Of a DNA stretch of 64,000 nt, positions 1 through 8,754 are shown one piece after another. The notes beneath the pieces were generated by a model. The model did not search any database and was not told where the DNA came from. It saw only the letters and a program-made list of their open reading frames with translations. How positions within the stretch are numbered: the stretch's first letter is position 1; each line of letters begins with the position of its first letter. Source of the stretch: Naasia sp. SYSU D00057 (lineage in GTDB: Bacteria > Actinomycetota > Actinomycetes > Actinomycetales > Microbacteriaceae); the NCBI RefSeq assembly GCF_017916505.1, contig NZ_JAFMSZ010000003.1:1-64000 (forward strand), given 5' to 3'. The translations under genes and the position numbers were made by a program.

Positions 1-397
1 ACGGCCGCTCCGCGGCCTCCTCAATCACCGGGAAGAGGGGCGCGGTTCGAAGCGGCTCGCGTGATCTCGAGACGGCCGCTCCGCGGCCTCCTCAATCACC
101 GGGAAGAGGGGCGCGGTTCGAAGCGGCTCGCGTGATCTCGAGACGGCCGCTCCGCGGCCTCCTCAATCACCGGGAAGAGGGGCGCGGTTCGAAGCGGCTC
201 GCGTGATCTCGAGACGGCCGCTCCGCGGCCTCCTCAATCACCGGGAAGAGGGGCGCGGTTCGAAGCGGCTCGCGTGATCTCGAGACGGCCGCTCCGCGGC
301 CTCCTCAATCACCGGGAAGAGGGGCGCGGTTCGAAGCGGCTCGCGTGATCTCGAGACGGCCGCTCCGCGGCCTTCTCAGTCACCGGGGAAGGGGCGA
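1..397. repeat. Tandem 71-bp repeat array with embedded 39-bp palindrome
   Basis: Five identical 71-bp units begin at 1, 72, 143, 214 and 285; a sixth, diverged unit begins at 356 and fades out near 397. The first unit touches the window edge, so the array may continue upstream. Each unit joins a 39-bp imperfect palindrome (outer arms GTGAT and ATCAC, inner arms GGCCGC and GCGGCC) to a 32-bp spacer. Complete palindromes lie at 61-99, 132-170, 203-241, 274-312 and 345-383 (the last diverged). The same palindrome occurs singly at 7022, 7128 and 7209. No credible gene lies in 1-482; open frames here are products of the repeat. The base-perfect units suggest recent amplification. Confidence 0.95.
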
Positions 398-3169: not shown

Positions 3170-4057
3170 ATGACCGATGCTCACCCCCGCCCGTCGGACT
3201 CCCTCGCCGCGGACACCGGCATGGGGGCCGTCACCCTCGCGGTCGCCGACCTCGACCGGATGATCGCGTACTACCGCGACGGGGTCGGCCTCGACCTGCT
3301 CGCACAGCAGGGCGATCGTGCCGAGCTCGGCCGGGGCGGCGCCGCCGCGCTCGTGCTGGAGCAGCGGCGCGAGCTGAGGCACGCGTCCCCCTCCCAGGCC
3401 GGGCTGTACCACACGGCGTTCCTCTTCCCCGATCAGTCGGACCTCGCCGCCTCGGTGTACTCGGTCGCCACCCGCTACGGCGGATCCTTCAACGGCAGCT
3501 CCGACCACCTCGTCAGCAAGGCGCTCTACTTCGACGACCCCGAGGGCAACGGCGTCGAGCTGTACTGGGACCGCCCGCGCGCCGAATGGCAGTGGGACGG
3601 CTCGCGGGTGCGAATGGGGACGGTGTTCCTCGACCCGAACCGCTTCCTCCAGGAGAACCTCACCGAGCAGGGCGCGACGACGGGCGTGCAGGGCGACGCG
3701 GGCGTCGGGCACGTGCACCTCAAGGTGGGCGACATCGCCACCGCCCGCGCGTTCTACGTCGACACGGTCGGCTTCGAGGTGACGGCCGCGTTCGGCGACT
3801 CCGCCCTCTTCGTCTCCGCGGGCGGCTACCACCATCACCTCGGCATGAACACCTGGCACAGCGCCGGGGCGGGCACCCGCACGCCGGCGCTGGGCCTCGG
3901 CGAGGTGTCGATCGCGGTTCCGACCGTTGAGGACCTCGGCGCGCTGCGGGAGCGCCTCACCGCCCGGGGCGTGCAGCAGCGTGACACCGGCGCGGGCCTC
4001 TCCTTCGAGGACCCGTGGGCCAACACCGTCCGCGTCGCGGTGGCTGCCGCATCCTGA
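3170..4057 (+). CDS. Two-domain VOC protein, catechol 2,3-dioxygenase-like (CatE type)
   Basis: Vicinal oxygen chelate family protein of 295 residues. The first VOC module spans about residues 17-130 (begins MGAVTLAVADLDRMIAYY, ends VELYWDRPR); the second spans about 165-285 (VGHVHLKVGDI to FEDPWANTV). The likely metal ligands are histidine of LYHTAF, glutamate of GVELYW and histidine of GHVHLKV. The order and spacing match Bacillus CatE-type extradiol dioxygenases, but glyoxalase or bleomycin-resistance-like roles cannot be excluded. The start at MTDAHPRP was preferred to one 35 codons upstream, which would run into the divergent promoter region. Confidence 0.82.
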   Translation: MTDAHPRPSDSLAADTGMGAVTLAVADLDRMIAYYRDGVGLDLLAQQGDRAELGRGGAAALVLEQRRELRHASPSQAGLYHTAFLFPDQSDLAASVYSVATRYGGSFNGSSDHLVSKALYFDDPEGNGVELYWDRPRAEWQWDGSRVRMGTVFLDPNRFLQENLTEQGATTGVQGDAGVGHVHLKVGDIATARAFYVDTVGFEVTAAFGDSALFVSAGGYHHHLGMNTWHSAGAGTRTPALGLGEVSIAVPTVEDLGALRERLTARGVQQRDTGAGLSFEDPWANTVRVAVAAAS

Positions 4058-4220
4058 CCCGCCAGGCTCCTACCTGTAGCTGACAGACTCGTCCGCGCGG
4101 TCGCGCAAGGTCGTCAATCGCGATCAAGCGGAGTTGCTCGCCCGCGCCTGCCCGTACGACTCATTCTCCCAGCTACTACCCAAGTCCCAGTGAGCCGCGC
4201 GCACTTCAGCTGCGCCACGA

Positions 4221-4226
4221 TATATT
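4221..4226 (+). promoter_or_regulatory. -10 box of the three-gene cassette, leaderless start
   Basis: TATATT sits six bases before the ATG at 4233, with no purine-rich ribosome site between, so the first gene of the cassette is probably translated from a leaderless mRNA. No convincing -35 box is visible in 4190-4205. Confidence 0.5.
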
Positions 4227-4232
4227 CGATCT

Positions 4233-5003
4233 ATGCCCGGCGCGCCCACGGAAGCTCTCAGGTTTCGAACTCCACCAGTGCGTTCAGTGGATCTGACCCT
4301 TTATTTCCCACCGATTCGGGAGCTGCGCGTTTCCGCCCTCGCAAGCTTCATAAGTGGCTGGACTCAACGCTACTCATTGATAGCTGAAAGTTTCGCGTTG
4401 CCGCCGGTCGAGCCCGACGCGAATCAGTCAGACTACTTCCCTGAGGGCGGGATGCCCTTTCCTTGGCTCGTGTTCCGCGACAGCAAGGGACACCGGGTGG
4501 GTTTCCAGAATGACCGATTCAGTCTTTACTGGCAGTTTGAGGACGGGACCGAGTACGAAGGTTTCGAGACACTGAAGTCCGAACTCCTCGCCCGCTTCAA
4601 CGATTACGCGAAGGCGGTGATGCTGGCGGCAGGCGAAGCTCCACGGCCGATCCGCGCTCAGTGCGAATATTCGAATGATTTCGGCGCCGTAAGCCCTTTA
4701 GAGGTGGCGACAGCAACTCTGTTGAGTGGTGATCATGTCATACCGCCAGCTGATCGATCGATCCAGTACGCCTTCCATATCACTCTGCCGACAGTGAGCG
4801 AGCAGGACGTCGACACCGTTGTCGAAGTGAACGCTGCGACGCGCGAGGGACAGAATGTCATGTGGCTCGACTCCAACGCGAAGGCGTCACGCGAAGACAT
4901 AACGGCCACCGACCTCCTCAATGCGGCCCACGAACAACTGCTCCAAGCTTTCGTATCTTCGTCCTCGAGCAAGCAGTTGGACACTTGGGGGATGGTCCGA
5001 TGA
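4233..5003 (+). CDS. TIGR04255-like family protein, first gene of a foreign-looking cassette
   Basis: A 256-residue soluble protein. The N-terminal block (PPVRSVDLTLYFPPIREL, about residues 14-31), a central segment around WQFEDGTEYEGF, and the C-terminal LLNAAHEQLLQAF resemble the TIGR04255 family, a sporadically distributed group of unknown function. This assignment is from memory of the family pattern and is not certain. It overlaps the next gene as ATGA. Base composition is clearly lower than in flanking genes: two 60-base lines counted by hand give 33 and 35 G+C, that is 55-58 percent. Codons such as TTA, ATA and CGA, rare elsewhere in the window, occur here. No catalytic motif was recognised. 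Confidence 0.6.
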   Translation: MPGAPTEALRFRTPPVRSVDLTLYFPPIRELRVSALASFISGWTQRYSLIAESFALPPVEPDANQSDYFPEGGMPFPWLVFRDSKGHRVGFQNDRFSLYWQFEDGTEYEGFETLKSELLARFNDYAKAVMLAAGEAPRPIRAQCEYSNDFGAVSPLEVATATLLSGDHVIPPADRSIQYAFHITLPTVSEQDVDTVVEVNAATREGQNVMWLDSNAKASREDITATDLLNAAHEQLLQAFVSSSSSKQLDTWGMVR

Positions 5004-5488
5004 GCGCCTCTGCTCTAGTCGCCCCTGAACTCAGACGGTCTTCCCTCCAGTGGAAGCTCGCTCAGCGCAAGCCTTTCCAACGTTCCGTAAATGCGCGCGA
5101 GGCCAGCGAAGCCGCACACTTCGATCCAGCGGTAGTCGGCTATGTCTCGCGCAGATTCTCGCAGCTACACACGCCGCCCGATCCCCGCGCGCAGGCCGCG
5201 TTCCGGCGTATTCTTCAGGGAGTTGTTACGGCGTCAACAGTTTTTCCTTCGGTCTCTGCTGATGAGGACGGGGCAGTGGTCGCGGTATGGAGGTGTGGCC
5301 CCCTCTCGTTGCAGATCGACGTCAATGTCGACGACTCCTTCTATGTGCGCGCGAGCGATCGTGATAGTCACACACTAAGAGAGTGGTATGAGGGCGCCTT
5401 CCCCTACACGGCGATCCAAGGCTTCCTCCGGGACTTGTCCCGCCGTACGGCCAAGGTGAATCCCGAGTGGCATCGACTTTATGAGTGA
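5000..5488 (+). CDS. Hypothetical protein, second gene of the cassette
   Basis: A 162-residue protein without a recognised domain. The ATG at 5000 overlaps the upstream TGA (ATGA), so translation is coupled; the longer open frame upstream is a shadow of the first gene. The N-terminal third is basic (RRSSLQWKLAQRKPFQRS), and the C-terminal half looks like a mixed alpha/beta fold (LSLQIDVNVDDSFYVRA, then TLREWYEGAFPYTAIQGFL). No signal peptide or membrane segment. It shares the lower GC of its neighbours and overlaps the third gene by eight bases. Confidence 0.72.
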   Translation: MSASALVAPELRRSSLQWKLAQRKPFQRSVNAREASEAAHFDPAVVGYVSRRFSQLHTPPDPRAQAAFRRILQGVVTASTVFPSVSADEDGAVVAVWRCGPLSLQIDVNVDDSFYVRASDRDSHTLREWYEGAFPYTAIQGFLRDLSRRTAKVNPEWHRLYE

Positions 5489-5990
5489 TTCCGGAGACTG
5501 GCTCTGGGATGACGCATCGATACGGGACGACGACGAACTTCTACGCAAGGTTCCGCAGAAGCTCTACGAAGACGCCGCAGTGCTCGATCTGGAGTCCGGT
5601 GAACGTGCCGTGGGTCCGGCAATGTTGCGGTACGACTACGCGGAGGATGTAGGCGCCGATCAGGAGGGCATGTCCGTGCACCTCTGGAAGGTGCTCGAGG
5701 ATCGCGGGCGCGACCCTCGCACGTTGCACGCTCTGCCGACTCGGGCTCTGGTGTTCCGGGCTAAGCATGTGAGAGCCGCGCCGGTTGAGGCAGGTGTCAT
5801 TCGAAAGCCAGACTCCGATGAAGAGGACGAGGACCTCTCCTCTGCGCACGGGCTGGTCCGCCATTCTGAGCCTCTCCCTAAACCTCCAGCGAAGAAGAAG
5901 CAACCGATCTGGAACCGTATCCGAAGCGCAATCGCAGAAGAGGCCCGGTGGGTCCAAGCAACCACCGCACCAGAATCGATGTCGCCTTAG
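5481..5990 (+). CDS. Hypothetical protein, third gene of the cassette
   Basis: A 169-residue soluble protein of unknown family. Residues 1-100 look folded (KLYEDAAVLDLESGE, MLRYDYAEDVGADQ); the rest is low complexity, with an acidic run DSDEEDEDL near 112-120 and a proline-lysine run KPPAKKKQP near 134-142. The start codon lies inside the end of the upstream gene, so the three genes form one transcription and translation unit. The acidic then basic tail suggests a flexible linker or a contact surface for partner proteins; this is inference only. There is no known toxin, nuclease or protease motif. Confidence 0.72.
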   Translation: MSDSGDWLWDDASIRDDDELLRKVPQKLYEDAAVLDLESGERAVGPAMLRYDYAEDVGADQEGMSVHLWKVLEDRGRDPRTLHALPTRALVFRAKHVRAAPVEAGVIRKPDSDEEDEDLSSAHGLVRHSEPLPKPPAKKKQPIWNRIRSAIAEEARWVQATTAPESMSP

Positions 5991-6063
5991 CAGCGCGACC
6001 GAGGGACCGCCCGCTCGGCGGGGCCGGTAGAATCGTCGGGTTCCCGATCGGAAGGGTGGCCCC

Positions 6064-6314
6064 GTGCCGACCATCGTCGTCGAAGTCATGCCCAAGGCCG
6101 AGCTCCTCGACCCCCAGGGCAAGGCGGTGGCCGGGGCGCTCAAGCGGCTCGGCAAGTCCGAGTTCTCGTCGGTGCGGATCGGCAAGCGGTTCGAGCTGAC
6201 CGTCGACGGGCCCGTCGACGACGGCGTGCTCGCCGACGTGCGGGACATCGCACAGACCCTGCTCTCGAACGGCGTCATCGAGGACGTCGTCGCCATCCGG
6301 ACGGAGGACGAGCG

Positions 6315-6318
<4 letters not shown>
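6064..6318 (+). CDS. purS: Phosphoribosylformylglycinamidine synthase subunit PurS
   Basis: Small scaffold subunit (84 residues) of the three-part FGAM synthase, which converts FGAR and glutamine to FGAM in purine synthesis. The fold-defining pattern [18 protein letters not shown] and the C-terminal [18 protein letters not shown] are typical. GTG start with GGAAGG about ten bases upstream; a TAGAAT that could be the -10 box lies near 6027. It overlaps purQ by four bases. PurL, the third subunit, is encoded 3.5 kb away. Confidence 0.93.
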
Positions 6319-7010
<692 letters not shown>

Positions 7011-7021
7011 CCGTCCTTCCG

Positions 7022-7060
7022 GTGGTTGAGGAGCCGCCGCAGGCGGCGTCTCGAAACCAC
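7022..7060. repeat. Dispersed 39-bp palindromic element, copy a
   Basis: Starts GTGGTTGAGGAG and ends TCTCGAAACCAC, with a CCGCC/GGCGG stem core. It is 39 bp, in the opposite orientation to the elements of the 1-397 array and with GTGGT/ACCAC outer arms instead of GTGAT/ATCAC. It lies 11 bases after the purQ stop and could fold into a hairpin that ends the transcript. Confidence 0.85.
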
Positions 7061-7127
7061 GCGACCTTGCCCTTGGACTCGGCCACCTCGCCGGCCCGGC
7101 GGATGATCCGGTCCGAAGGCACGTCGC

Positions 7128-7166
7128 GTGATTTCGAGACGGGCGCTCCGCGCCCTCCTCAATCAC
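7128..7166. repeat. Dispersed 39-bp palindromic element, copy b
   Basis: Starts GTGATTTCGAGAC and ends CTCCTCAATCAC, with GGGCGC/GCGCCC core arms. Same orientation and length as the units in the array at 1-397; the core arms differ by compensating changes on both sides. Confidence 0.88.
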
Positions 7167-7208
7167 CGGGGCGGTCTACCGGCGTGGCCGAGTCCGGGAA
7201 CACCTTGC

Positions 7209-7247
7209 GTGATCTCGAGACGGGCGCTTTGCGCCCTCCTCGATCAC
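7209..7247. repeat. Dispersed 39-bp palindromic element, copy c
   Basis: Starts GTGATCTCGAGAC and ends CTCCTCGATCAC, again with GGGCGC/GCGCCC core arms. It is 42 bases after copy b and 22 bases beyond the stop of the cytosine-permease-like gene, so copies a-c fill the gap between two convergent genes. Confidence 0.88.
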
Positions 7248-7269
7248 CGGGTGGCGGCACCGGGGCGGA

Positions 7270-8754
7270 TCAGCGGCGGCCGAGCTCCGTCACGCCGAAG
7301 CGCACCGCCTCGTGGCCGTACTGGAGGCGGTCCTCCTCGGCCACCTTCTCCTCCGCGGCGAAGTCGAGCGTGCGCGCGAGGATCAGGTACGCGACCGCCG
7401 AGGCGAGCAGCCCGACGAACAGGGCGATGTCCGCGCCGCCGAGCAGCGTCGCAACCGGCCCGGTGTACCAGACCGTGACGACGAACGGGATCATGGCGAC
7501 GATGCCGATCGCGTAGGCAGTGAGCCCGCGCCAACCCCAGGCGCCGTAGACGCCGTGCGGGTTGAAGATCTCCCGCACCGCGTACCGGCCCTTCCGGACG
7601 AAGTAGTAGTCGACCAGGTTCACACTCGTCCACGGCACGAGCACGTAGAGCAGCACGACGAGGAAGCTGCCGAAGTTGGCGAGGAACTCGCCCGTGCTGA
7701 GGAGCGACCCGACCACGGCGGCGGCTGCGATGACGAGGCAGCACACCACGCGCAGGGTGCGGGTCGGCTTCACCGGGCGGACCGAGTCGAGGATCGTCAC
7801 GACCTCGAGCGCCGCCGCGTAGATGTTGACCGTGATGACACTGATGAGGCCGGGGAGGGCGGCGACCAGCAGCCAGAGGCCCGCACCGGGGAGGATGAGG
7901 TCCGCGGCGTCACGCACGCCCTCGAGCGGGGACGCTCCCGAGAACGCGGCCGCGATGAGGGCGCCGAGCCCCATCAGCCAGACCGCGCCGACGAAGACCC
8001 CGCCGTAGGTGTAGCCGAGGGCCCGTGCCGGGCTCGTCTGCGGCGGCAGGTAGCGGGAGTAGTCGGAGACGTACGGCGCCCAGCCGAGCGCATACGCGGC
8101 GGCACCGCCGAACTGCACGAGGAACGCGACCCAGTTGAGGTTCGCGAGAGACAGCTGCGCAGGATCGAGCGGTACGACGAACAGCGCGGCGACCGTGAAG
8201 ACGCCGAAGGTGACGAGGAACAGCAGGGTCAGCCACTTCTGCACCCCGTGGATCCAGTGGTAGCCGAAGATCGCGAGCAGCACCGCGAGGCCGCTGATCA
8301 CGAGGTACCAGAGCGCCGGCGCGTCCACGCCGGTGGTCATGACCGCGACGTCGGAGGCGAGCATCTGATTGAACATGTTGAAGCCGACGAGGCTGAACAC
8401 GACGATCGCGCAGATGAGGATGACGCCGCGGTAGCCGAACTGGGCCCGGGACTGGATCATCTGCGGCAGGCCCAGCTGCGGGCCCTGCGCCGAGTGGAAC
8501 GCGGTGAACACGGTTCCGACGGCGACGCCGAGGACGATGGCGAGGAGGGACGCGGCGAGGGAGCCGCCGAGCGCGGCGCCGAGCATGCCGGTGGCGAGGG
8601 TGGTCACGTTCGCGTTCGACATGAACCAGAGCGGAAACAGCGTCCACGGCTTGCCGCCGCGGGCGCTGAGCGGGACCCAGTCGATCGAGCGCGACTCGAT
8701 CGTCTCGGGTGCGGAAGGAGCGACGACAGGCTCGGCGCTGGGCGTGGCGTTCAC
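7270..8754 (-). CDS. NCS1 family purine-cytosine permease-like transporter
   Basis: Integral membrane carrier of 494 residues with about twelve hydrophobic segments. The N-terminal ESRSIDWVPLSARGGKPW and the following FPLWFMSNANVTTLATG are characteristic of NCS1 cytosine/purine permeases (CodB/Fcy2 type), which import nucleobases with protons. The GTG start at 8754 was chosen over an in-frame start 113 codons upstream because GAGGAG lies seven bases before it and because the upstream stretch overlaps the divergent aldolase promoter. The exact substrate (cytosine, purine, allantoin or hydantoin) is not decided by sequence; nearby purine genes fit a nucleobase. The C-terminus is charged and cytosolic. 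Confidence 0.88.
   Translation of the reverse strand: MNATPSAEPVVAPSAPETIESRSIDWVPLSARGGKPWTLFPLWFMSNANVTTLATGMLGAALGGSLAASLLAIVLGVAVGTVFTAFHSAQGPQLGLPQMIQSRAQFGYRGVILICAIVVFSLVGFNMFNQMLASDVAVMTTGVDAPALWYLVISGLAVLLAIFGYHWIHGVQKWLTLLFLVTFGVFTVAALFVVPLDPAQLSLANLNWVAFLVQFGGAAAYALGWAPYVSDYSRYLPPQTSPARALGYTYGGVFVGAVWLMGLGALIAAAFSGASPLEGVRDAADLILPGAGLWLLVAALPGLISVITVNIYAAALEVVTILDSVRPVKPTRTLRVVCCLVIAAAAVVGSLLSTGEFLANFGSFLVVLLYVLVPWTSVNLVDYYFVRKGRYAVREIFNPHGVYGAWGWRGLTAYAIGIVAMIPFVVTVWYTGPVATLLGGADIALFVGLLASAVAYLILARTLDFAAEEKVAEEDRLQYGHEAVRFGVTELGRR

Follow-up and report, generated by a model that had tools for sequence, protein, structure and literature searches.

The tandem array at the start of the window (the whole 64,000-base stretch analyzed here, bases 1-64000 of contig C15 of genome G000, a draft of 3.36 Mb in 21 contigs) is best explained, with a probability of roughly three in four, as a duplicated arm of a composite element belonging to a mobile hairpin-repeat family, in which a GIY-YIG nuclease reads one stem base pair, X:X', by way of a C-terminal residue. 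This reading draws on the dispersal of the family, the covariation of its hairpins, the anatomy of its composites, the existence of empty sites, the association with a nuclease gene and a residue/base-pair code, all of them seen by comparing sequences. In the mechanism proposed here the 42-nt units would be the recognition hairpins of the family; the non-autonomous element would be a composite of ~140 bp, and the full element would add the GIY-YIG gene in mid-spacer. The nuclease would recognize the hairpin, read X:X' by its C-terminal residue (R90 with G:C) and probably cut the hairpin when extruded or single-stranded, after which host repair or replication would spread and duplicate the copies; in the window one composite arm would have had its outer hairpin duplicated in tandem. 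The case for recognition of the hairpin by the nuclease is strong; binding to it and the strand state are presumed, cleavage is expected from protein family membership, and mobility is suggested by the empty sites and by composites that resemble internal deletions of the nuclease element.

The 39-nt hairpin of the array recurs at 7022, 7128 and 7209, as the first-pass annotation of this DNA had recorded, and the hairpin pattern has 8 matches in the window and none in 100 dinucleotide shuffles. The compensating changes in the core arms that were also described there are seen in three core variants (GGCCGC/GCGGCC, GGGCGC/GCGCCC and CCGCC/GGCGG); the statement that the palindrome is always exactly 39 bp holds in the window but not genome-wide, where the core measures 11-20 nt over the units listed. 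Sixty aligned units have the form GTGRTYTCGAGACG - core - CTCCTCRAYCACCGG; almost no variation is seen in the foot, in a two-base bulge or in an internal mismatch, and the core stem is very variable yet paired. Standard pairs make up 95.5% of the cells of this alignment, and changes on both sides are found in 117 cells vs. 44.9 ± 4.4 in shuffles, with none of 500 shuffles as high; pairing falls to 34-53% when partners are slid by 1-3 columns. The earlier suggestion that structure is conserved over sequence is borne out. Of the 60 units, 44 have A-U at position 4 and its partner, 15 have G-C and one has G-U; the two are therefore paired within the unit in every case, while in several composites this position is not the same in the left as in the right unit, which identifies the single-unit hairpin as the conserved structure. 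A four-way junction of the whole composite was also considered, since the folding programme often favors a long cross-shaped form, but was set aside because the position-4 pairing is within-unit. The core stems of copies in this genome differ greatly and are almost always paired, as if their arms had repeatedly been corrected against each other.

Beyond the window, CCTCRAYCACCG occurs 159 times in the genome vs. once for its reversed control, and a covariance model identifies at least 135 units among 150 scored candidates; the genome thus holds far more than the few copies with which the earlier mobile-element reading would have been hard to reconcile. More than 100 dispersed, mostly extragenic copies are typical of REP and REPIN families, and here 135 units are found, with only 4 of 63 blocks inside ORFs (the blocks having been assembled from fetched loci and their gene context taken from a rough ORF caller). 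The basic composite of ~140 bp consists of two inverted hairpins with their 3' arms outward and a self-complementary spacer of ~50 nt. Inverted pairs forming a larger hairpin, as in REPINs, are seen in the 26 of 63 blocks that are plain outward inverted pairs; further blocks carry extra units, and extra partial units sit on the outside of the block and are oriented like their neighbor. Spacers in the 27 longer pairs are 48-67 nt long, and in folds of these 27 composites the two halves are largely complementary in most. The composite in the window has its left REP hairpin at 7019..7060 on the minus strand and its right one at 7128..7169 on the plus strand (both by pattern and covariance-model matches), separated by the spacer at 7061..7127, whose halves are largely complementary in most copies by spacer comparison and folds; to its right a further copy of the right spacer half and REP hairpin (7209-7250) has been duplicated outward (7170..7250, plus strand). 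Outside this genome the exact 29-base hairpin pattern was found in four records, namely two Agromyces, one Pseudoclavibacter and one MAG labelled Asaia, in all of which units were confirmed by model matches. Searches of plasmid and phage collections returned 23 records each, every one at <60% identity.

The candidate enzyme is encoded on another contig of the same genome. On C17 the gene of a 110-aa nuclease (locus L069, 2881-3222; 113 codons from GTG, 110 from the methionine of MPW) lies within a composite made up of an inverted hairpin pair and both spacer halves, in agreement with the first-pass proposal that an enzyme encoded beyond the window serves a REP-like element. The protein matches GIY-YIG (PF01541) with 53.7 bits against a cut-off of 22.6, and R25, H29 and E62 are invariant among eight aligned nuclease proteins. 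GIY-YIG enzymes cut DNA and are not known to rejoin it, which counts against a role in movement. The closest solved structures by sequence are UPF0213-type GIY-YIG proteins (PDB 1zg2 and 1ywl), whose match to the nuclease stops at residue ~78-83, before the C-terminal part that carries the code residue. Like MITEs, the non-autonomous composites share their hairpins and spacer halves with the larger GIY-YIG element. Some nuclease copies whose match contains a stop might have been taken as broken; this was rejected, since where read the stop is the natural gene end and the match runs beyond it.

Protein and hairpin are also linked by the code. The motif GGYYGAG...TCGARRCC is present at 33 of 46 GIY loci (190 instances), compared with 19 instances in 230 shuffles, 1 of 11 control loci and 2 of 19 window chunks; the 13 loci that do not have it include that of G000 itself (L093) as well as L090, L091 and L098, whose hairpins depart from the pattern. 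X:X', the two motif positions that directly follow GAG and directly precede TCGA, is complementary in 187 of 192 instances (T:A 79, G:C 64, C:G 44). At all 26 scorable loci (those of the 46 with at least two motif instances and a 70% majority) a single protein column agrees with X: lysine with T at 11, arginine with G at 9 and glycine with C at 6. The MI of this column is 1.54 bits with z 14.2, and the next-best column reaches z 5.4, both judged against label shuffles that ignore kinship; the pattern had been noticed by eye before it was computed. At none of the 26 loci does the codon concerned overlap a motif, the nearest one being 11-371 bp away. The G000 nuclease fits the code, with R90 and G:C hairpins. 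Among the 20 non-scorable loci, 9 agree, partly by eye (L090, L093, L098, L099, L104, L117, L127, L130 and L193, with L104 mixed at 4 T:A vs. 2 C:G); L121 is a tie for X, L136 has serine with X = C, and L091 is counted against the code as aligned (R with X = C), the alignment there being ambiguous. The other 8 have no usable pair or residue, including L132, with R and a single C:G match. A second-best protein column, alignment column 53 (Y48 of the G000 nuclease), has Y mostly with T:A and W mostly with G:C or C:G.

Residue and base pair appear to have changed together repeatedly. On a tree of 35 loci calculated without the code column and its neighbors, X requires 9 changes and the residue 9 changes, and closely related proteins switch both together (L119/L129; L100/L092, which lie in one genome; and L124 within a T/K clade). 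Many branches of this tree are weak; the well-supported ones leave 2-4 independent pairs per letter, all of which agree, at a number for which the sign test is not significant. When 15 further nuclease copies were fetched from multi-copy genomes as new data, all 10 decided by script agreed with the code, and L200, which the script scored as a failure since the profile had cut off its residue and which agrees on direct reading afterwards, brings this to 11 of 11 decidable; these loci are not fully independent, because they were drawn from genomes already sampled. L210 agrees on one motif instance, and L211, L212 and L213 give no call.

Within the genus, hairpin-model matches accompany 8 of 9 small GIY-YIG loci at E ≤ 1 and 5 of 9 at E ≤ 0.01 (the weak ones being L092 at E 0.018, L099 at E 0.04 and L089 at E 0.35), compared with none of 11 control GIY-YIG loci, which comprise 9 of UvrC type and 2 other GIY sequences recognized by eye. 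The ninth small locus, L091 (the gene of G003), has a different short palindrome. Short core-less variants (CCCGTTGAGCYCGTCGAAACG and CCCTGAGCCTGTCGAAGGG) form tandem arrays of ~39 and ~35 bp beside GIY-YIG genes at L091 (1240-1400) and L136 (1158-1380). Across the class the nuclease subfamily is present in 30 of 296 genomes sampled (G000 included) and in 10 of 115 genera. An inverted repeat spanning the gene scores at least 16, a threshold chosen after the scores were seen, at 25 of 38 GIY loci and at none of the 11 controls, the best of which scores 14; one of the 25, L125, is a parS-like palindrome, and the best arms of L132 and L134 are likewise parS-like palindromes, with scores under 16, these three loci belonging to three genomes other than G000.

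The association between hairpins and gene is modest at the scale of whole genomes: in 37 genomes of the family the nuclease gene is present in 9 of 18 with model matches vs. 2 of 19 without (Fisher p 0.013, a value that ignores kinship). Counted against it are G006, with at least 108 scored units vs. at least 106 in G000 yet no small GIY-YIG gene, and G033, with 39 units, as well as G020 (13 units), G017 (8), G007 (6) and, with 1-2 units each, G004, G005, G024 and G031, all of them without the nuclease gene; conversely, G003 and G010 have the gene and no hairpin-model matches in the genome scan. The many hairpins of G006 and G033 are real difficulties, although the nuclease may possibly have been lost, or horizontally lost, there. 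The G006 assembly is 90% complete. Its uvrC-like gene (L096) is frameshifted, with in-frame stops soon after the GIY-YIG domain, so the assembly may be error-prone.

Comparison with relatives shows loci at which an entire block is either there or missing. Where G000 has the nuclease block (945 bp of query, bounded by two flanking genes), G006 has 36 bp, G004 has 3 bp and G001 has 115 bp; in G003, the fourth genome searched, the two flanking genes do not follow one another in this arrangement. In place of the composite C17:186433-186572, G006 has 14 bp. The simplest reading of these sequence differences is insertion in this lineage, though absence could also reflect loss in the relatives. The G006 site without the element is too diverged at the junction to show a target-site duplication. 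The window site at 7019 has no clean empty counterpart among seven relatives that have the upstream gene without hairpins, since the next gene differs; at the L076 sites the G004, G006 and G002 loci searched gave no hairpin with E < 0.5, and the junctions involve other gene changes. Also at L076, a gene segment of ~4.6 kb flanked on both sides by composites (3578-8465; C15:294.4-299.3 kb) is missing in G004, which has 130 bp there.

The presence/absence pattern bears on the most serious alternative, which we regard as less likely than not: that the nuclease is a gatekeeper and not a mover, cutting single strands that bear the hairpin (e.g., incoming DNA in transformation), with hairpins accumulating for some other reason, such as self-marking, and spreading by recombination. 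The code demonstrates recognition, not transposition, and G006 and G033 retain many units without the gene, both as such a role would allow. It would also have a parallel in Neisseria, where Ssn enzymes are reportedly small GIY-YIG nucleases specific for single-stranded DNA of particular sequence, with dispersed cognate repeats; the hairpin composites and the residue code come from the present analysis. Against the gatekeeper reading, a gene lying inside a composite between the spacer halves is what one would expect of an autonomous element from which non-autonomous ones derive, and at fixed loci entire blocks are either there or missing. The odds given for these two readings are not exclusive, because the recognition step is common to both. 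It is slightly better than an even bet that the mobile family represents a class of its own among actinobacterial mobile elements, consisting of autonomous hairpin-GIY-YIG-hairpin elements and hairpin-only swarms, with a one-residue code that switches repeatedly and with nuclease cutting plus host repair in place of a transposase.

The array itself occupies 1..397 on the plus strand, cut off by the contig end at base 1. Tandem Repeats Finder reports 1-396 with period 71, 5.6 copies and 98% match; bases 1-355 are five identical 71-bp units, so that the base-perfect array of the first-pass annotation stands, and the final partial unit is diverged. Pattern and covariance-model matches place plus-strand REP hairpins at 61..102 (full, GTG..CACCGG), 132..173, 203..244, 274..315 and 345..386, the last with a diverged 3' arm. 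Each 71-bp unit consists of the right half of the composite spacer, one hairpin and ~12 bp of 3' flank, and the array is therefore read as an outward tandem duplication of the outer hairpin of one composite arm, lying between a LuxR-type gene and an ABC transporter gene (ATPase, PF00005; 483..1364, plus strand). The same array is found at the end of contig C14 (locus L068). Near full-length homologues of the ABC gene occur in five relatives, and in four of these (G006, G003, G008 and G002) a LuxR-type regulator gene resembling the one at the C14 end lies just upstream, from which C14 and C15 are very probably joined through the array; a hairpin array is consistent with a break in the draft assembly at that point. 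The intergenic gap would then be 792 bp if the contig ends do not overlap and ~0.7 kb if their identical part is shared. The corresponding gap in G006 is 105 bp with no hairpin match; that of G003 has a weak match (E 0.0018, L216 1319-1356), and the gap may therefore have been hit more than once. Recent amplification of the array is plausible, with a unit number that is a draft value only, because one contig starts and the other ends inside the same array. For the same reason the count, though not the array, might have been inflated by assembly, with two overlapping ends and fewer real copies; this is improbable, as whole units are present on both ends, the outermost units are not identical to those between them, and duplications of this outward kind are also seen elsewhere, at loci within contigs.

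A role at the RNA level, in which hairpins 3' of genes are retained for their effect on termination or on the stability of mRNA and are passively amplified, would suit the setting of the 63 blocks: 29 lie between convergent genes, 25 between tandem genes and 2 between divergent ones, with 3 more at edges and the 4 inside ORFs. This account is nonetheless very unlikely: it leaves unexplained the strict foot and bulge beside a free core, the inverted composites and the code between protein and base pair, and no Rfam family other than one tRNA was matched in the six sources searched. Hardest of all to sustain is a REP/REPIN system driven by a RAYT that has been lost or has escaped the search, since the resemblance in inverted pairs, copy number and tandem clusters to the REPINs of PMC3116915 is outweighed by the residue code linking the hairpins to the GIY-YIG protein and by the failure of the REP-associated tyrosine transposase foreseen in the first-pass annotation to appear, PF01797 having no match in a genome rated 100% complete and the same search being positive in 5 of 14 control genomes.

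Because of that missing Y1 transposase the family is REPIN-like in its working yet not a RAYT-REP. As described in PMC2817692 and PMC3116915, RAYT-REPs and REPINs are alike in being dispersed extragenic palindromes with inverted pairs, tandem clusters and compensating changes, and in having an enzyme gene flanked by two inverted palindromes and an enzyme that co-evolves with its repeat; unlike them, the present family has a GIY-YIG nuclease in place of the Y1 tyrosine transposase, a free core stem and a fixed foot and bulges. CGTC-tagged REPs are similar in that PMC3733652 describes a REP family apparently without a dedicated transposase, with a stem, tail and tag unlike ours. No unpaired GTAG or CGTC tag is present here, the consensus ending GTGATT..AATCAC in paired form. 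The word "actinobacteria" does not occur in the main text of PMC3733652, nor do "palindrom", "YhbQ" or "UPF0213" in PMC1564403, and our literature search found no paper linking GIY-YIG to REPs. The analysis names a candidate enzyme for REP-like repeats in a genome that has no tyrosine transposase, together with a testable rule of one residue and one base pair, which was correct in its calls at new loci. Should cutting be confirmed, the enzyme would be a small nuclease with hairpin specificity and a readable code, and would point to a second route by which bacterial genomes could gain REPIN-like populations.

The genome also contains a second hairpin subfamily, represented by two pairs with spacers of 21-22 nt. 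Palindromes of the sequence TGTTTCACGTGAAAC, which we take to be parS-like, adjoin hairpins of this subfamily at locus L070 (~2030-2750; C15:92.2-93.0 kb).
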